Shown here: positions 6,085 to 30,694 of the stretch, one piece after another
How positions within the stretch are numbered: position 1 is the first letter of the stretch
How the letters are laid out: the number at the start of each line of letters is the position of its first letter
Source: a virus
Virus record (IMG/VR): IMGVR_UViG_3300025316_001120
Span: 1-45,883 of that record
DNA: 45,883 nucleotides
Direction: 5' to 3' (one strand)
Notes under the pieces: model-generated
Told to the model about the DNA's origin: nothing
Databases searched by the model: none
The model's input: the letters and a program-made list of their open reading frames with translations, nothing else
Program-made: the position numbers and the translations under genes

Positions 6085-6546
6085 ATGAGCACAACAACAA
6101 TGGACTTATTCTCGCCAATCACGCTGAACGAGGCGAAAGCAAACAGAAGAGGACGCAACCTCAAAGAAAACGAAATCAGCATAATGCTGACAGCGAACAA
6201 AAAAACAATGACGATAAACATTGCCGTTTCAGAAGAGGCGGAAAAGACAAACCGCCGATTTTTTAACGTCATCGTCAACCCGATCACCGGGGAGGTTTAT
6301 TTTTATTTTGACCTCAAAGGGTTTGAGCTAACCAAATCCGGGACAAACAGAACATCCTTTGGAATTTATAACAACCGGGGAGCGGTCGAACAAATAGCCA
6401 AGGCGCTCCACATAGAGAATGCGAAACCCGGTAGGTACATAGTCAGCATCAAGAAAATAGAAGATAGCCCGGATAAAACGAAGACCTCATTCTGGGTGAA
6501 CACGGTGAAATTAGACGAAGACTACAACTGGACAAAAACCAAATAA
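6085..6546 (+). CDS. Hypothetical protein between recT and exonuclease genes, 153 aa
   Basis: Not recognised. The N-terminus carries a short basic patch (ANRRGRNLKENEIS); the rest alternates beta-like strands (FFNVIVNPITGEVYFYFDLK) and one helix (RGAVEQIAKALHIE), ending in a conserved-looking SFWVNTVKL. Its place between annealase and exonuclease genes and its compact size suggest a recombination accessory; this is inference from context only. Confidence 0.75.
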   Translation: MSTTTMDLFSPITLNEAKANRRGRNLKENEISIMLTANKKTMTINIAVSEEAEKTNRRFFNVIVNPITGEVYFYFDLKGFELTKSGTNRTSFGIYNNRGAVEQIAKALHIENAKPGRYIVSIKKIEDSPDKTKTSFWVNTVKLDEDYNWTKTK

Positions 6547-6558
6547 AAAACACACGAA

Positions 6559-7500
6559 ATGGCAACAACAATCATCAGACCAGCAAGCCACGAAGAATGG
6601 CTCAAACACCGCGAAGAGGGGATCGGAAGCTCCGAGGTTTCGAGCATCCTGTCGATGAACCCATACCAGACACCATACCAGCTCTGGCGACGCAAAAAAA
6701 AGCTCGACCCACCACTAGAGCAAAACATGCCCATGCGCTTAGGCCACCTGCTCGAAGGAGCCGTCTCCCAGCTTTGGAGTGAAGAGAGCGGTCGAGAAAT
6801 AATTAAAGCGTCAGCCATTGACTGGATCGCAGTCAACACAGAAAAGCCTTTTTTTAGAGCAAGCCCCGACCGCACATACTGGCTCCCAGAAATGAAGCGG
6901 AACAACGACAACAAAGGAATCCTAGAGTGCAAAACCACGATGATGAACGTGAGCAGAGACGACATCCCGAAAACGTGGTTTATTCAACTTCAGTACTTAC
7001 TCGGAGTTTCAGAGACGCAAACCGGATCACTGGCGTGGCTTTGCGCCGGGCGGGATTTCGACTACGTCGACATAAACCTTGTACCCGATTTTTTTGAGGT
7101 GATAAAAGAGGACGTCGAGCGATTCTGGGTGGATAACATTCTGGGAAACCGGGAACCCGAAGCGATAAACGCCGCCGACATTTTGATCAAGTACGCGCGG
7201 CATTCTCCGGGAAAACTGGCGGAGGTCGGCGAAGACATCGCCAAAGCCTACAGCGATTTGAAAGAAGTAAAAAAGGAACTCAAAGCGCTTGAGGAAAAAA
7301 AAGGAGGGCTAGAAGAAACCATAAAAATGAAATTCAAAGACGCCGAAACGATCGCCTACCTAGGAGAGACACTGGCCACTTGGAAAACAGCGAAGGATAG
7401 CGAGAAAATAAACACCAAAGCACTAGCCGCCGCCTACCCAGCCATAGCCGCACAATTCACCACCACAGAACCCGGCTCCCGGCGATTTTTACTGAAATAA
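6559..7500 (+). CDS. YqaJ-type viral exonuclease (lambda-exo fold)
   Basis: 313 aa. Predicted 5'-3' double-strand exonuclease that makes ssDNA for RecT. Motifs of the PD-(D/E)xK exonuclease family are present: IGSSEVSSILSMNPY near residue 22, RLGHLLEGAV with Glu66, ASPDR with Asp104, ILECKT with Glu123 and Lys125, and WFIQLQYLLG with Gln143. Residues ~225-262 form a Lys/Glu-rich helix (SDLKEVKKELKALEEKKGG), and a small C-terminal beta unit follows, as in many phage YqaJ proteins. The ATG at 6559 gives the full family N-terminus. Confidence 0.95.
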   Translation: MATTIIRPASHEEWLKHREEGIGSSEVSSILSMNPYQTPYQLWRRKKKLDPPLEQNMPMRLGHLLEGAVSQLWSEESGREIIKASAIDWIAVNTEKPFFRASPDRTYWLPEMKRNNDNKGILECKTTMMNVSRDDIPKTWFIQLQYLLGVSETQTGSLAWLCAGRDFDYVDINLVPDFFEVIKEDVERFWVDNILGNREPEAINAADILIKYARHSPGKLAEVGEDIAKAYSDLKEVKKELKALEEKKGGLEETIKMKFKDAETIAYLGETLATWKTAKDSEKINTKALAAAYPAIAAQFTTTEPGSRRFLLK

Positions 7501-25157: not shown

Positions 25158-28100
25158 ATGGAGCCTAGAAATTGGGAACTGGAACACCAAGTCAGACAAG
25201 AAGAAATAAAAAAAGCGCTTGATAAAATCTATGCAGCGTCGGTACGCGAAGCCGCTGACATTGGCGCTTCAGTTACCGATTTTAACCCGGATAAACCATT
25301 CAACTGGAACGATTACACATCCACAAAGGCGAGGGTCGACGCCATGAACAAAGCGCTGGCTCAAAGAGTTCAAACGGTAATCACCACCGGGTCGAAGATA
25401 GCATGGGAGCAAGCCAACATGAAAAACGACGCACTCGCAAAATGGGCGCTGGGACTTCACACACCAGCCCCGGCGCAACCATCAACCAACGGAGCCGCTC
25501 CCGTTCAGCTTGATTTGTTTGCAGCATTGCCAGCCGCCGTCAAGGAATTGCCAACCGTAAAGAAATTATTCAACAACAACGAAGGCGCTCGCGCGGCATT
25601 TTTGGAGCGCAAGACGGACGGGCTCAAACTTTCCGACCGGGTGTGGAATTACACAAACCAATTCAAAACAGAGATCGAGATGGGACTCGATGACGGAATA
25701 CGAAACGGGAAACCAGCGGCGGAGATTGCCAGAGACCTGCGACAATTCCTGAAGGAACCAGACCGGGTGTACAGGCGCTTCCAAATGTACCTCCGGGACG
25801 CGGACGGGAATCCAGTCCTAGACCGGAACGGTAACAAAATAATGATAAAGCAACAGCGCCGCCAATACATCGACCCAGCTACCGGAGCCAAAACCTGGAA
25901 AGTGGAAAAGCCCGGCTACCATCCGGGACGCGGCGTTTATAGATCGAGTTACAAGAACGCGCAACGATTAGCGCGAACCGAAGTAAATATGGCCTACAGG
26001 ACAGCTGACCACATAAGATCGCAGCAATTTGACTTTGTGGTTGGAGTAAAAATCGACCTTTCAAAAAGCCACCCAAAGACAGACATTTGTGACACGTTGA
26101 AAGGGCGCTACCCTAAAGAATTCAAGTACACAGGATGGCACACGCATTGTTATTGCCCCATGACGTTCATAATGAAGACACCAGACGAACTGGCAGCGGA
26201 CACCGAAAAGATTCTCGCGGGAATTCCGACAGACGGCGAAAGCGTCCTGTCCATAAACCAAATGCCTGACAATTTCGACCGATGGATCACAGCAAACAGA
26301 GACAGGTACCAGAACGGAGCATCCGCGCCATATTTCATCCGGGACAATTACGACGGCGGGAAAATAGACAATGGCCTACGGTTTGACGCCACGCCACCAA
26401 CAGCGCCTCCAGTTGTACCTGCCAGCGTTCAGGCCACAATTCTCAGAAACCAAAGAGCAACCAGAGCGACACCCGCAACCGCGCCGCCTGACCTTTTCAG
26501 TCAACCAGCCCCAGCGCCACCAGCACCAACACCAATACCAGCGCCTACCCCAACACGATACACGATTGAACAAGCCAGCACTGATTATGAAGCCGCAAGA
26601 ATGAGGGCTGCAAACTACCCACCTAACGATCAGAGGCGAACTGCAAGACAGGCGAGAATCGACGTCGTAAACACGCGATCCAACCTGCAACGGATGGAAC
26701 GCGAAGCCGCTGCCTCCGTTCAAAGAGTTGAACAGGCGGTCATTCAGAGCACCATCCCATCGAACGAAACACCAAGGGAGGCCGCAACGCGAACACTCCA
26801 CGAACAACAGGTCGCAGAGTATAAAAGATACTCACAGCGCAAAGTAGACGAAGCAAGGAGGCTGGGAATTGCAACCCCGGAACTTGACGCAACGGTCGTC
26901 GCGATAGCAACATCGACAGACACCAACGAAATCGCAACAGTAACACAAAAGCTGACCAGACAGATCGCCAAAGAAAAGAGGCGAGTCAGGGAAGCAGAAG
27001 CCTTGGCAGCCAGAACAGGAACCGCCGCCGTCCAGACAGAAGCCCAGCTCGCAGCCGAAGCAAGCGCCGCTCAACAGCGAATCTCAATGGCAGAGCGAGC
27101 CGCCGCACGAACACAGGCCGCTGGAATTGTCGAGCAACAGGACGCCGCCATCCTTGCTGAAAGGGAGGCTGTAAGATTGACGGGCGGAGTCATTGATTGG
27201 TCGAAACAGACATCAACAGAGAAAACCGAAGCGGACGCCAGAGTTTTAAAATGGGCGATTGAAGACGCAAAACGAGTAATGAAACAGGCGGACAAGATGG
27301 GATTTAAACCAACGGCTTACTCCGAACTTAACTACTCCGTTACAATGGGTCACGGAGCGGACGTTCTAAAATACAGGACAAGCGAGTTATCTAACGCCAT
27401 CACCGTCGAAAATGCAAGACTGATGGCGGAATCGATGGCCGCGGCAAAACGTGGGACGTTTGCAATGAACGACGCAACCAGAAAAGAGTTAGAAAAAAAA
27501 TATTTTAAAATATCTATTACGGATGATGAATGGAACCAGAACATGGAAAGTTTTGATTTATTGAAATTAAACGAGGAAATAGAAGCTCTCTCCAAAAAAT
27601 ATGGAATAACACTGACAAGCAAGGAAGTAGTAGGCGGATGGGGAGAAAAAATAAAAATGGAAATTAGAGGACATAGGGCTGGAAACGGAGATACAGAATT
27701 CATCCTACAACGGCAATTTATACCCAAAGGCGTCAAAGGACACACGCAGAAAACAGTTAGCCATGAATACTTGACGGTACCAGACGAACTACAAGGAAAA
27801 AACCTGACAAAAGAATTATTTTCATCGCTTTACACCCAATATAAAAACGGAGGATTCGAAAGGCTCGAAGTACACGCAAACATCGACGTCGGAAGTTACG
27901 CGTGGGGACGTTACGGATTCACTGCCAACAAAGACCAAAACAGCAAAATAAAGGGCTTTTTCACAAAACGAAGGTCAGATATTTACAACTACCCAACGCA
28001 GATGCTGAAATCGGAAAATGAGCGAAGAGCAAAACAAAAACTACCACCAACAACCGTCGCCATAATGAACAAAGAACTCGACGACATCGACGCGTACCTG

Positions 28101-28256
28101 AACAAAAACGACGGGAAGTTGATCGACATGCACAAGGTCTCAGGAATGCCCGGAGCAAAGACGCCGCTCTTAAATAAGCATTGGTTCGGACACTTAGACT
28201 TAACCAAACCAGATCAGCGGCAAGTATTCGAAGAGTACATCTCAAGGCGGAAATAG
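25158..28256 (+). CDS. MuF minor head protein with C-terminal GNAT-like domain
   Basis: 1032 aa, far longer than the usual 300-500 aa of minor head proteins. Residues ~1-400 are the head-morphogenesis part; the MuF (SPP1 gp7) core is at ~265-340 with AQRLARTEVNMAYRTADHI, DICDTLKGRYP and a His/Cys cluster WHTHCYCPM. Residues ~400-480 are a Pro/Ala linker, ~480-800 long helical Ala/Arg/Glu-rich sequence. Residues ~830-930 resemble a GNAT acyltransferase: SHEYLTVPDELQGKNLTKEL followed by RLEVHANIDVGSYAWGRYGF, although the usual glycines of the acyl-CoA loop are partly replaced (QGKNLT). From about 27480 the DNA is clearly richer in A/T than the rest of the gene. Architecture fits MuF polymorphic toxins carried by temperate phages; toxicity is inference. 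Confidence 0.85.
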   Translation: MEPRNWELEHQVRQEEIKKALDKIYAASVREAADIGASVTDFNPDKPFNWNDYTSTKARVDAMNKALAQRVQTVITTGSKIAWEQANMKNDALAKWALGLHTPAPAQPSTNGAAPVQLDLFAALPAAVKELPTVKKLFNNNEGARAAFLERKTDGLKLSDRVWNYTNQFKTEIEMGLDDGIRNGKPAAEIARDLRQFLKEPDRVYRRFQMYLRDADGNPVLDRNGNKIMIKQQRRQYIDPATGAKTWKVEKPGYHPGRGVYRSSYKNAQRLARTEVNMAYRTADHIRSQQFDFVVGVKIDLSKSHPKTDICDTLKGRYPKEFKYTGWHTHCYCPMTFIMKTPDELAADTEKILAGIPTDGESVLSINQMPDNFDRWITANRDRYQNGASAPYFIRDNYDGGKIDNGLRFDATPPTAPPVVPASVQATILRNQRATRATPATAPPDLFSQPAPAPPAPTPIPAPTPTRYTIEQASTDYEAARMRAANYPPNDQRRTARQARIDVVNTRSNLQRMEREAAASVQRVEQAVIQSTIPSNETPREAATRTLHEQQVAEYKRYSQRKVDEARRLGIATPELDATVVAIATSTDTNEIATVTQKLTRQIAKEKRRVREAEALAARTGTAAVQTEAQLAAEASAAQQRISMAERAAARTQAAGIVEQQDAAILAEREAVRLTGGVIDWSKQTSTEKTEADARVLKWAIEDAKRVMKQADKMGFKPTAYSELNYSVTMGHGADVLKYRTSELSNAITVENARLMAESMAAAKRGTFAMNDATRKELEKKYFKISITDDEWNQNMESFDLLKLNEEIEALSKKYGITLTSKEVVGGWGEKIKMEIRGHRAGNGDTEFILQRQFIPKGVKGHTQKTVSHEYLTVPDELQGKNLTKELFSSLYTQYKNGGFERLEVHANIDVGSYAWGRYGFTANKDQNSKIKGFFTKRRSDIYNYPTQMLKSENERRAKQKLPPTTVAIMNKELDDIDAYLNKNDGKLIDMHKVSGMPGAKTPLLNKHWFGHLDLTKPDQRQVFEEYISRRK

Positions 28257-28261
28257 TAAAA

Positions 28262-28471
28262 TCAAAGAGGGGACACAGGCCACGTCTTCTCGTATTTTTC
28301 AAAGTCGGAAAGAGACACCTGACTAAGGCGGAGCGCATCCTCCAGCGGGTACTCATTCCAATAAACCATGCTGGCAGCAGCCCAAACGCGGTGCTTGATT
28401 TCGGTTTCTTTATCGACAACAAAAGTGGAGTGCATCCGCTCCGTTAATTCTTCGGGATAATCGTAGGCCAT
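28262..28471 (-). CDS. Hypothetical protein convergent to the MuF gene, 69 aa
   Basis: MAYDYPEELTERMHSTFVVD, then EIKHRVWAAASMVYWNEYPL and a helical end with EDALRLSQVSLSDFEKYEKT. Looks like a compact helical protein with an HTH-like final part. It ends 5 bp from the MuF stop, tail to tail, and starts 33 nt beyond a strong terminator. Its place beside a possible MuF toxin makes it a candidate immunity or antitoxin gene; nothing in its sequence proves that. Confidence 0.6.
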   Translation of the reverse strand: MAYDYPEELTERMHSTFVVDKETEIKHRVWAAASMVYWNEYPLEDALRLSQVSLSDFEKYEKTWPVSPL

Positions 28472-28503
28472 AAAATGAAGGTTTTAAAGCCACAAAGCTA
28501 GAC

Positions 28504-28532
28504 AAAAAAAAAGCCGGGAGCTAAGCCCCGGC
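28504..28532 (-). terminator. Intrinsic terminator (minus strand)
   Basis: On the minus strand GCCGGG (28532-28527), a loop containing the stop codon of the gene ending at 28521, CCCGGC (28518-28513), then nine T (28512-28504). The best terminator in the window. Confidence 0.85.
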
Positions 28533-28850
28533 GTTTATTTTTGCAGCGAAGAAAAGAACCCGCTCCACGTTTTCAGCAGTCATGGACGACTTGCCATTCA
28601 GGAAGCTGGAAAGGGTAGCCCGGCGAATCCCGGCGAGATCAGCAACCGCGTTCTGCTTCCCATGAACTGCCAATTTTACAGCAAGGCGAAGATTCACAAC
28701 CCCGGTAGTTAGGAAGCAATGACAAGCCCTGAGAGCTGCCAGCCGATCGGTCATCCAATCGTCGTCCTTGACAAGAGCAGGAAGCGAGGACATGGAAATG
28801 CGAAGCTCCAGCGCCGCAATTTCAGTTTTTAAAATATCGGCAGTTTTCAT
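28521..28850 (-). CDS. HTH protein, 109 aa
   Basis: The N-terminal half is a helical unit (MKTADILKTEIAALELRISM). The C-terminal ~45 residues are a Cro/C1-type HTH: KQNAVADLAGIRRATLSSFL then NGKSSMTAENVERVLFFAAK. Probable transcription regulator of the minus-strand cassette or of one operator class. Overlaps the upstream gene by 4 bp and ends in the terminator at 28504. Confidence 0.78.
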   Translation of the reverse strand: MKTADILKTEIAALELRISMSSLPALVKDDDWMTDRLAALRACHCFLTTGVVNLRLAVKLAVHGKQNAVADLAGIRRATLSSFLNGKSSMTAENVERVLFFAAKINAGA

Positions 28851-29119
28851 TTTTCAACAGAATTAAGAGCGTTAACAATAGCGCGATATTGGAACCCGAC
28901 AATTGGATGCTCCGCCGTAATTCCCTGCGCGTCCATAACGGCCTTTGCACCACGACACGCCTCGTAAAGCGAAGGAGCCGCCGCGATCAAGTCGCCATCC
29001 CCTGCACTAACGCCAGAACAAACTACTACCGAACCAACAGCCGGATCACTCGATGGGAAAGAAACGACGCGATGAAGGCCGCGATGGTGTCGCCAAATCC
29101 CTGCCGTAAATTTACCCAT
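28847..29119 (-). CDS. Hypothetical phage protein, 90 aa
   Basis: GDLIAAAPSLYEACRGAKAV resembles the DxxLIAAAPxLxEAL segment seen in many small phage proteins of unknown function. The N-terminus contains a His/Arg-rich strand (GIWRHHRGLHRVVSFPSSD). Overlaps both neighbours by 4-8 bp. Confidence 0.7.
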   Translation of the reverse strand: MGKFTAGIWRHHRGLHRVVSFPSSDPAVGSVVVCSGVSAGDGDLIAAAPSLYEACRGAKAVMDAQGITAEHPIVGFQYRAIVNALNSVEK

Positions 29120-29591
29120 TCCACACCTCCTCTCTCAACCCATTAGCAGACCAACCGAAAGCCCGGAAGCAATCCTCGACGGTTAGTTTTTTGGGGTCGA
29201 CCGTCATAAGATAATCGCGTCCATTATCAAGGCGCTGTCCCAAAGACACCCGCAAATTAAACTCGCACTGCGACACAACCGGGTCTGGCCGGGTTTCGTT
29301 TTCGATTTCAAAATGGCTAATTTTATTGGAGCCACACCCAGTGCTCAGGATGTAGGCGACGACCGAAACCAGATCACCTGTTTTTTTGAATCCGCGCACA
29401 CTAACAGGAAATGTTGTTTTAAGCTGAAGGTTTAGTAAGGAATTCGAAGCCCCGGAAGATTCCCAGCCATCAAAAAAAGAATAAAGTAAGGATGAATCCT
29501 CATTCACATTAACAATTAGGGTTTTTTTGTTGACACCAACACCGTAGGTAGGATTAAAAAGGCGAAAAACGACTAAGGTTTTTAAACTCAT
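29112..29591 (-). CDS. Hypothetical protein, 159 aa
   Basis: Beta-rich sequence with VGVNKKTLIVNVNEDSSLLY, a Ser/Gly stretch (DGWESSGASNSLLNL), and a C-terminal helix VEDCFRAFGWSANGL. No family recognised. Preceded by one of the recurrent GC hairpins. Confidence 0.65.
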   Translation of the reverse strand: MSLKTLVVFRLFNPTYGVGVNKKTLIVNVNEDSSLLYSFFDGWESSGASNSLLNLQLKTTFPVSVRGFKKTGDLVSVVAYILSTGCGSNKISHFEIENETRPDPVVSQCEFNLRVSLGQRLDNGRDYLMTVDPKKLTVEDCFRAFGWSANGLREEVWNG

Positions 29592-29608
29592 TTTTGAAAG
29601 TTTTGTGC

Positions 29609-29629
29609 CTCCCGGCGCTAACCGGGGAG
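29609..29629 (-). other. Recurrent intercistronic hairpin, cassette copy 1
   Basis: CTCCCGG (29609-29615) pairs with CCGGGGAG (29622-29629) with one bulge; lies 17 nt upstream of the start at 29591 on the minus strand. Shares CTCCCGGCG...AACCGGGAG with the copies at 29830 and, shorter, at 30351. Confidence 0.55.
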
Positions 29630-29638
29630 CGGATTAAA

Positions 29639-29812
29639 TTAATAAGGGAAATAAATCAGAGAAACCAACCCCTGCGGAAGAGGCTCATTACACCCGGTCG
29701 GCGTAACATCAGAGCAAAGGATCGGACGAACGGACAGCGCCTCAGACAGAACATGAACCGTACCACAGACAGGACAAGTGAAACTGAAGTCGGTAAAATT
29801 TGGGTTTTCCAT
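29639..29812 (-). CDS. Small zinc-knuckle protein, 57 aa
   Basis: Product begins MENPNFTDFSFTCPVCGTVH and has a second Cys group (LCSDV, GCNEP), giving a probable zinc ribbon (CPVC plus two later Cys). It lies between two hairpins and fits the spacing of its neighbours. Function unknown. Confidence 0.6.
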   Translation of the reverse strand: MENPNFTDFSFTCPVCGTVHVLSEALSVRPILCSDVTPTGCNEPLPQGLVSLIYFPY

Positions 29813-29829
29813 TTCGATGTTTTTGAGCC

Positions 29830-29845
29830 TCCCGGCGAACCGGGA
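29830..29845 (-). other. Recurrent intercistronic hairpin, cassette copy 2
   Basis: TCCCGG (29830-29835), 4-nt loop CGAA, CCGGGA (29840-29845); 17 nt upstream of the start at 29812 on the minus strand. Confidence 0.55.
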
Positions 29846-29854
29846 AGCGGGTTT

Positions 29855-30151
29855 TTAATAACGGTTAATAATTTCGACAGAGTGAATCGAGCGGAGCGAA
29901 GACAGGATGGAAGACAGCTCATCATCCAGCGAAGCAACGGTCGGAAATTCGACAATCGACAAAGGAAACAAGCGGTCGGTGTCCAGATCGCAAAGGTCGA
30001 TTTTTCCACCTCCGGGATTGAAACCACTGCGCCATTTATAACGGAGCGAACGATCCGGGTAGACAATAACACTGAAGGTCGACTGGTCGAAAATTTCTTT
30101 TGAACCAAAACCGACAGAAAAGAGACGGTAAACAAGTAGGAGCCTTTTCAT
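29855..30151 (-). CDS. Hypothetical protein, 98 aa
   Basis: Start chosen at MKRLLLVYRLFSVGFGSKEI (30151); the frame is open to 30262 but would overlap the upstream gene. Basic beta-like N-terminal half (VIVYPDRSLRYKWRSGFNPG) and a helical C-terminus with a Leu/Ser repeat (DDELSSILSSLRSIHSVE). Not recognised. Confidence 0.6.
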   Translation of the reverse strand: MKRLLLVYRLFSVGFGSKEIFDQSTFSVIVYPDRSLRYKWRSGFNPGGGKIDLCDLDTDRLFPLSIVEFPTVASLDDELSSILSSLRSIHSVEIINRY

Positions 30152-30161
30152 TTTGCAGGGA

Positions 30162-30332
30162 CTAAAGGATTTGAGAATTGGAGACAGAAAGAGTAGAGCT
30201 GGAACCGTCCGAGTCAGCGATAAGATAATCGCCATCGGGCTGAACCCGAACAAAGATGCCATGAAGAGCGACGTTTGAACCCGGAAGCGTAAACCAAACG
30301 AGCGATCCTTTTTTAATTTTTTGAGCTGCCAT
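30162..30332 (-). CDS. Small SH3-like protein, 56 aa
   Basis: Start at MAAQKIKKGSLVWFTLPGSN. Alternating strands (ALHGIFVRVQPDGDYLIADS) look like a KOW/SH3-type small barrel. Ten nt separate it from the next gene. Function unknown. Confidence 0.55.
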   Translation of the reverse strand: MAAQKIKKGSLVWFTLPGSNVALHGIFVRVQPDGDYLIADSDGSSSTLSVSNSQIL

Positions 30333-30350
30333 TTTTTGAGAGTTTATGCC

Positions 30351-30366
30351 CCCGGCGCGAACCGGG
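30351..30366 (-). other. Recurrent intercistronic hairpin, cassette copy 3
   Basis: CCCGG (30351-30355) and CCGGG (30362-30366) with loop CGCGAA; 18 nt upstream of the start at 30332 on the minus strand. Weakest of the three. Confidence 0.45.
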
Positions 30367-30376
30367 AGCGGGTGAA

Positions 30377-30640
30377 TTAGAAAGTAAAAAATTGAGAAAT
30401 TTGACCATCCATGACGCAAACAAAGCGCTTCCAAACAGCCATGTCGCGGTGAATTGCAACCGCTGAACTGTTAGAGAATTCACCAATTAACAACCGTTGA
30501 AGGCCGAAAGAAAGAGTTTTAACCGTCTTCGTCTCGGTAGCGCCAAAGACATCAGAGGCGAAAATCAGAACGAGAGGCGAGCAATCGTCATACTTTGTGC
30601 TCAAAAAAGAGAAAAGGTCGGAGGTGGAAATTGTTGTCAT
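30377..30640 (-). CDS. Hypothetical protein, 87 aa, first gene of the cassette
   Basis: MTTISTSDLFSFLSTKYDDC at 30640 (Met at 30649 is an alternative). Soluble, Ser/Thr/Phe-rich, with VLIFASDVFGATETKTVKTL and a Trp-containing end. It is about 55 nt downstream of a strong minus-strand promoter. Not recognised. Confidence 0.6.
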   Translation of the reverse strand: MTTISTSDLFSFLSTKYDDCSPLVLIFASDVFGATETKTVKTLSFGLQRLLIGEFSNSSAVAIHRDMAVWKRFVCVMDGQISQFFTF

Positions 30641-30694
30641 AATAATCATGGTTTTAAGAAAAACAGCCGGGGTTCATTCCCCATTTGCATGCTA

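Follow-up and report, generated by a model that had tools for sequence, protein, structure and literature searches.

The MuF toxins characterised to date are only ADP-ribosyltransferases and (p)ppApp synthetases (PMC11699363). Bxa, a MuF-ADP-ribosyltransferase of a Bacteroides stercoris prophage with the immunity proteins BAH and Bsi, is toxic to E. coli; small proteins encoded beside it neutralise it, in one case by binding (PMC11699363). The same paper reports variants of the ART, glutamine-deamidase and alarmone-synthetase kinds in Bacteroidales. The locus studied here lies in a 45,883-bp virus record, all of which was analysed and is referred to as the window. It resembles Bxa in having a matching MuF core (phrog_16625), an effector placed after a middle region, and a small adjacent gene. 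Unlike Bxa, the effector is a predicted GNAT, a kind absent from the text of PMC11699363, and the companion gene belongs to an unclassified family, lies on the opposite strand and has its own promoter element, while toxicity and immunity are properties that we infer for the window pair.

In common with the MuF toxins of Jamet et al. 2017 (PMC5576092), the locus combines MuF with a variable C-terminus, belongs to a temperate-phage packaging module and has beside it a small gene for fewer than 150 aa. The main text of that paper contains neither 'acetyltransferase' nor 'GNAT'; it proposes that some MuF effectors act mildly, on lysogeny or on host defence. Phages also encode GNAT domains within polyvalent proteins, which are believed to pass into the host together with the DNA (Iyer et al. 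2017, PMC5512222); of the two GNAT families set out in that source, neither is described as a MuF fusion or as having a small companion gene. Type II GNAT toxin-antitoxin systems such as GmvT-GmvA (9ilr, which is among the Foldseek matches of the window domain) likewise consist of a GNAT enzyme and an adjoining small partner gene, but the window GNAT is fused to a phage head protein, its partner is often convergent and not operonic, and the companion shows no evident DNA-binding antitoxin domain. A search of the open literature, with subscription papers and preprints outside its scope, found no description of a GNAT-ended MuF protein or of the companion family.

Phage record and head protein

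As read from its gene content, the window is a temperate siphovirus, with a tyrosine integrase at 1-1356 and genes for RecT, YqaJ, large terminase, an SPP1-type portal, and major head and tape-measure proteins. Both open reading frames on which the sequence-only reading was built are present, tail to tail with 5 bp between their stops (Table 1). The longer specifies a MuF protein, judged by the matches of its core to phrog_7625 (E 1.5e-55), phrog_1657 (7e-24) and phrog_115 (6e-16), and by the gene order TerL-portal-MuF-capsid of the head/packaging module. A further family, phrog_16625, annotated 'Bxa ADP-ribosyl transferase', matches over the core with E 3.8e-77. The layout proposed from the letters was borne out: the MuF core (1 to about 408) gives way to a Pro/Ala linker, which leads through a helical region into the C-terminal domain (775-1032).

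Two neighbouring regions deserve mention. Between the MuF gene and the next head genes, a minus-strand block of small genes (28521-30649) lies inside the head operon, with one HTH-like gene (28521-28850) and mostly without family match. Just upstream of the terminase genes, a protein encoded at 20340-21662 matches ParB-like and DNA methyltransferase families.

Table 1. Features of the MuF-GNAT locus and its companion gene, in window coordinates.
Feature	Position	Strand	Basis or remark
MuF head protein with GNAT C-terminus, 1032 aa	25158..28256	+	ORF and PHROG matches
MuF core, residues 1-408	25158..26381	+	homology to closest relative, L154 (61%), ends here
Pro/Ala linker and long helical middle region, residues 409-774	26382..27479	+	sequence
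GNAT-fold domain (predicted), residues 775-1032	27480..28253	+	AF2, Foldseek and VIA matches, homologs
His869, domain strand 4; candidate catalytic base	27762..27764	+	conserved in 44/48; putative role
Acyl-CoA loop position, QGKN (879-882)	27792..27803	+	relatives mostly QGxG
Family signature ANIDVGSYAWGRYGF (907-921)	27876..27920	+	A907, G912, Y914, W916, G920 invariant in 48
Companion gene, 69 aa; putative immunity protein	28262..28471	-	EELTxxMHxEF motif, then three helices
TAGCTTTG, matching Bacteroidota -7 element TAnnTTTG	28493..28500	-	29 nt before companion start codon; consensus from PMC7366714
Terminator-like hairpin and T run	28513..28532	-	end of preceding minus-strand gene

A predicted GNAT fold at the C-terminus

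The C-terminal domain had been described as GNAT-like from its sequence layout, and structure prediction agreed with this. The AF2 model is of high confidence (pLDDT 91.9, pTM 0.87), and its top PDB matches are nearly all GNATs. Foldseek returned mostly GNATs as its top PDB entries (p300/CBP, NatD, Naa50, SACOL1063), none of them below E 0.001, and VIA-align gave Z values of 7.6 to 6.5 (under 8, and so middling alone) to nearly nothing except GNATs or GNAT-containing proteins; PA3270 and other GNATs were also among the structure matches. By sequence alone the window domain has a weak Pfam match, to Acetyltransf_10 with E 0.06, below the cut-off, while 16 of its 48 relatives match Acetyltransf_10, and Acetyltransf_1 accounts for nine matches, the best E being 1e-4. 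Because the VIA list is uniform and Pfam GNAT matches recur in the relatives, assignment of the predicted structure of residues 775-1032 to the GNAT fold can be regarded as safe. The best match among predicted viral structures (E 7.8e-12) was an uncharacterised phage protein, and the top four included one phage head morphogenesis protein.

As single-sequence queries against IMG/VR, the window domain and the 69-aa protein found no relatives, and both families were seen only with profiles. Sequence searches of the PDB turned up no meaningful match, and phage records contained no nucleotide match to the structural half. The domain profile, seeded from the window, L002 and L007, recovered 71 viral loci and 18 genome loci, some of which are the same contigs; the phage records with related GNATs carry names such as minor head protein and capsid maturation protease. 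Across the 48 aligned domains six columns are invariant, W1009 and the five in the signature (Table 1), with R852, H869, Y895 and G1011 near-invariant. By analogy with other GNATs, H869 is a candidate catalytic base.

Exchangeable C-termini on related MuF cores

Variation of the C-terminus on a conserved MuF core had been predicted, and at least 16 unrelated ends were found among related cores; these differing ends rule out a constant structural C-terminus. Within a sample of 80 loci picked by MuF core alone, the last 180 aa of 53 non-GNAT proteins fell into 16 groups, and a scan of 49 non-GNAT ends, in which a protein could have multiple matches, identified ADPrib_exo_Tox (13), ART (7), Gln_amidase (6), CdiA_C (1) and prok_STING (1). 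The core closest to that of the window (L154, 61% identity over residues 1-408) ends in an ART (ADP-ribosyltransferase) domain, and three cores that are 96-99% identical over their first 290 aa (L013, L014, L015) carry three different C-termini. The ends seen on relatives include a glutamine deamidase (L005), an ADP-ribosyltransferase (L014), LPD3 (L008), weak matches to a metallopeptidase-like domain (L017) and CdiA_C (L018), and the GNAT itself (L002, L004, L006, L007), and some relatives are without a C-terminal domain. The GNAT and companion pair also occurs on a different, unrelated type of head protein (L023, L025, L028, L097).

The same GNAT signature was detected within giant ORFs of 3706 and 2789 aa (L086 and L091), both cut by a contig end, which look like polyvalent proteins and may belong to the polyvalent-protein GNATs of Iyer et al. 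(PMC5512222). A separate observation concerns a MuF protein (L171:5832-7682) with a C-terminal extension that has a prokaryotic STING-like match (E 9.4e-5, below the cut-off) and precedes an unclassified end common to L157, L213 and L223; a domain resembling a cyclic-dinucleotide sensor on a phage head protein would be of interest.

The companion gene

On first impression the 69-aa gene was an orphan, which proved wrong when relatives were found with a profile. A shadow ORF is ruled out by recovery of the gene with its own profile and by third-position substitutions: the companions of L007 and L026 differ by 13, 6 and 35 changes at the three codon positions, and since these cluster at third positions, the gene is translated. 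Residues E8 and H14 (window protein numbering), part of the motif EELTxxMHxEF, are invariant in 23 companions, 22 of which are acidic. In the AF2 model (pLDDT 86.3) an extended N-terminal part is followed by three helices. Searches against Pfam and PHROG gave no consistent match for the companion, and the family is unclassified. A DNA-binding regulator seems unlikely, as the three-helix part matches HTH proteins weakly (best E 0.99) and nearly all companions are acidic. Larger proteins in 11 of 395 Bacteroidota genomes matched the HTH-like half (E 3e-5 to 8e-4), but these matches were weak and were taken as unrelated.

The facing gene had been put forward as a possible partner of the domain, and the finding is now stronger than was then stated, because the gene is tied to the GNAT domain specifically. 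In a test set of 60 MuF loci chosen by core alone, in each of which the gene is complete and followed by 300 bp or more of sequence, the companion was present in 5/5 GNAT-bearing loci and in 0/55 others (Fisher P 1.8e-7). The 55 negatives include a few near-identical loci, and the companion profile had drawn on four of the five positives, so that the negatives carry most weight. A search by the small protein alone recovered 23 loci, with a GNAT gene adjoining in 19, in both orientations. Over all loci, 42 distinct companions were found, of which 30 are tail to tail with the GNAT gene (within 2-43 nt), eight are downstream on the same strand and four have no GNAT match, so that a GNAT adjoins 38/42. 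Downstream of Bacteroidota GNAT genes, a gene of 61-79 aa on the opposite strand recurs. Among the first-checked loci, the profile matched every complete Bacteroidota GNAT-MuF locus except L101 and L103, which have a weak match only, at the same place, and it matched no first-checked MuF locus with another end. Companion distances follow those of the GNAT (Mantel r 0.38, partial 0.30) more closely than those of MuF (0.27, partial 0.12).

One of the four companions without a GNAT match has a GNAT remnant with stop codons beside it; the other three are orphans, forming two near-identical groups in fragmentary records with no GNAT match in the record. In genome G278 the decayed GNAT gene (L135) contains three in-frame TGA codons, and the frame of the companion beside it (L137) is complete. 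Orphans in phage records without GNAT match (L121:2275-2538 and L125:3926-4195) are possible stand-alone immunity genes. Orphan companions and a complete companion beside a GNAT remnant fit an immunity role.

The sequence TAnnTTTG is the -7 element of the Bacteroidota main sigma factor (PMC7366714). Of 23 companions, 13 have this element in the 45 nt preceding the gene, where random stretches taken from these loci would give 0.43. The window companion has its own match, TAGCTTTG, just after the hairpin and T run; this hairpin is modestly more stable than shuffles (z -1.4), and terminator-like sites in the region number 11 against 4.7 expected by chance. Because the -7 element comes just after a terminator-like hairpin, the companion looks like a separate transcription unit, and it could be expressed in the lysogen from this putative promoter, against which stands the absence of the element from 10/23 companions within the 45 nt searched.

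A proposed effector and immunity pair

We lean, by a little, towards a reading in which a temperate siphovirus of Bacteroidota encodes here a MuF polymorphic effector with a GNAT C-terminus, together with a cognate immunity protein. On the predicted fold and the sequence comparisons, the best reading of the GNAT is as a new effector type within the MuF polymorphic-toxin class. The MuF core would build the protein into the head near the portal, and the exchangeable GNAT C-terminus would probably be ejected with the DNA. In the cell it would acyl-modify a host target, most likely a protein, and either harm the cell or benefit the phage. The companion, an acidic three-helix protein with its EELTxxMHxEF segment, would act as the cognate immunity protein by binding the GNAT domain and blocking it; if produced in the lysogen at a time when the late genes are silent, it would guard the lysogen against its own and incoming copies. 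Its own promoter, which in the window is on the opposite strand, would make it available in a silent prophage.

A wider proposition seems to us evenly balanced: that the GNAT protein is an acyltransferase effector carried in the virion and has a dedicated immunity protein belonging to a new family, the module having spread over unrelated head proteins of phages from several phyla; that it is the first GNAT among MuF polymorphic toxins; and that a guard gene with its own promoter, often on the opposite strand, keeps the host of a silent prophage immune. MuF toxins are a recognised class that has been little tested, and the locus would add to them a GNAT effector with a conserved, compact partner. 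The clear prediction is that the facing gene neutralises the GNAT domain. Through this system one could approach the questions of whether MuF effectors reach the inside of cells and what makes protection necessary for lysogens, and the unclassified partner family may serve as a genetic marker for further delivered acyltransferases.

The same anatomy and conservation would be expected of a non-killing acetyltransferase for host takeover or anti-defence, which would acylate a host defence or regulatory protein at infection and be silenced by the companion in the lysogen or during assembly. Such a role would suit the spread of the domain across phages of several phyla, unrelated head proteins and the two giant ORFs, and it has precedents in the mild effectors proposed by Jamet et al. 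and in the GNATs of polyvalent proteins thought to be injected, described by Iyer et al. Nevertheless, we consider it rather unlikely, since in Bacteroidota the domain occupies a site common to recognised toxin-family domains, and the orphan companions suggest that neutralisation matters outside the pair.

Peculiarities of the window copy

The acyl-CoA loop had been called degenerate. This is true of the window copy, with N882 where 40/48 relatives have glycine, whereas the family as a whole has preserved the loop well: the window reads QGKNLT (within TVPDELQGKNLTKELF, residues 873-888), relatives mostly QGxGxS/A/G, and the GNAT consensus is Q/R-x-x-G-x-G/A. The window protein is the only Bacteroidota member of the 48 without glycine at the last loop position. 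The A/T-richness of the domain, noticed by eye, was substantiated: G+C is 0.411, against 0.508 in the core and 0.535 in the helical part, but the deficit lies mainly in codons 775-870, where GC3 is 0.31, as against a normal 0.53 in codons 871-1032. The GC3 of the whole domain (0.45) is the lowest among 108 overlapping 258-codon windows of the structural genes. The G+C-poor codons could reflect recent decay or acquisition.

Both peculiarities count against an active effector, and would be explained if the window copy were a dead or non-catalytic GNAT, either a binding module or a gene in decay, with the G+C-poor first third of the domain and QGKN in place of QGxG as its marks. We judge this unlikely, given that the other signature residues are kept (R852, H869, N908, D910, Y914, W916, W1009), the frame and the companion gene are both intact, and confidence in the predicted fold is high; moreover, asparagine is able to adopt a Gly-like backbone shape.

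Small LHEEIL-type genes outside Bacteroidota

Phage GNAT genes outside Bacteroidota are often followed by a small ORF on the same strand with an LHEEIL or LHEPIL motif (L033, L047-L050, L053, L054, L057, L059, L060, L063, L073, L082). The hhalign program places LHEEIL on the MHxEF of the companion with P 0.004 and a probability of 8.5%, which is suggestive only of homology between them. If the two families were one, the partner would not always be a separate immunity protein: directly after the GNAT gene of L063 (6993 onward), an LHEEIL segment begins a second GNAT protein of 588 aa, and L054 and L082 show apparent read-through into the next gene.

A fusion in cis to the GNAT is odd for an immunity protein and weighs against the effector and immunity reading; together with the read-through and the near-obligate pairing, it would suit a companion that is a functional subunit of the GNAT (a substrate-presenting, activating or assembly partner) and not its inhibitor, which we think quite improbable, as the LHEEIL-companion link is unproven, the opposite strand and a promoter of its own are hard to square with a complex made in equal parts from the late operon, and the orphan companions have no GNAT in their records. 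The GNAT gene of L048 is followed by two related LHEEIL-type small genes in tandem (6434-6682 and 6698-6988).
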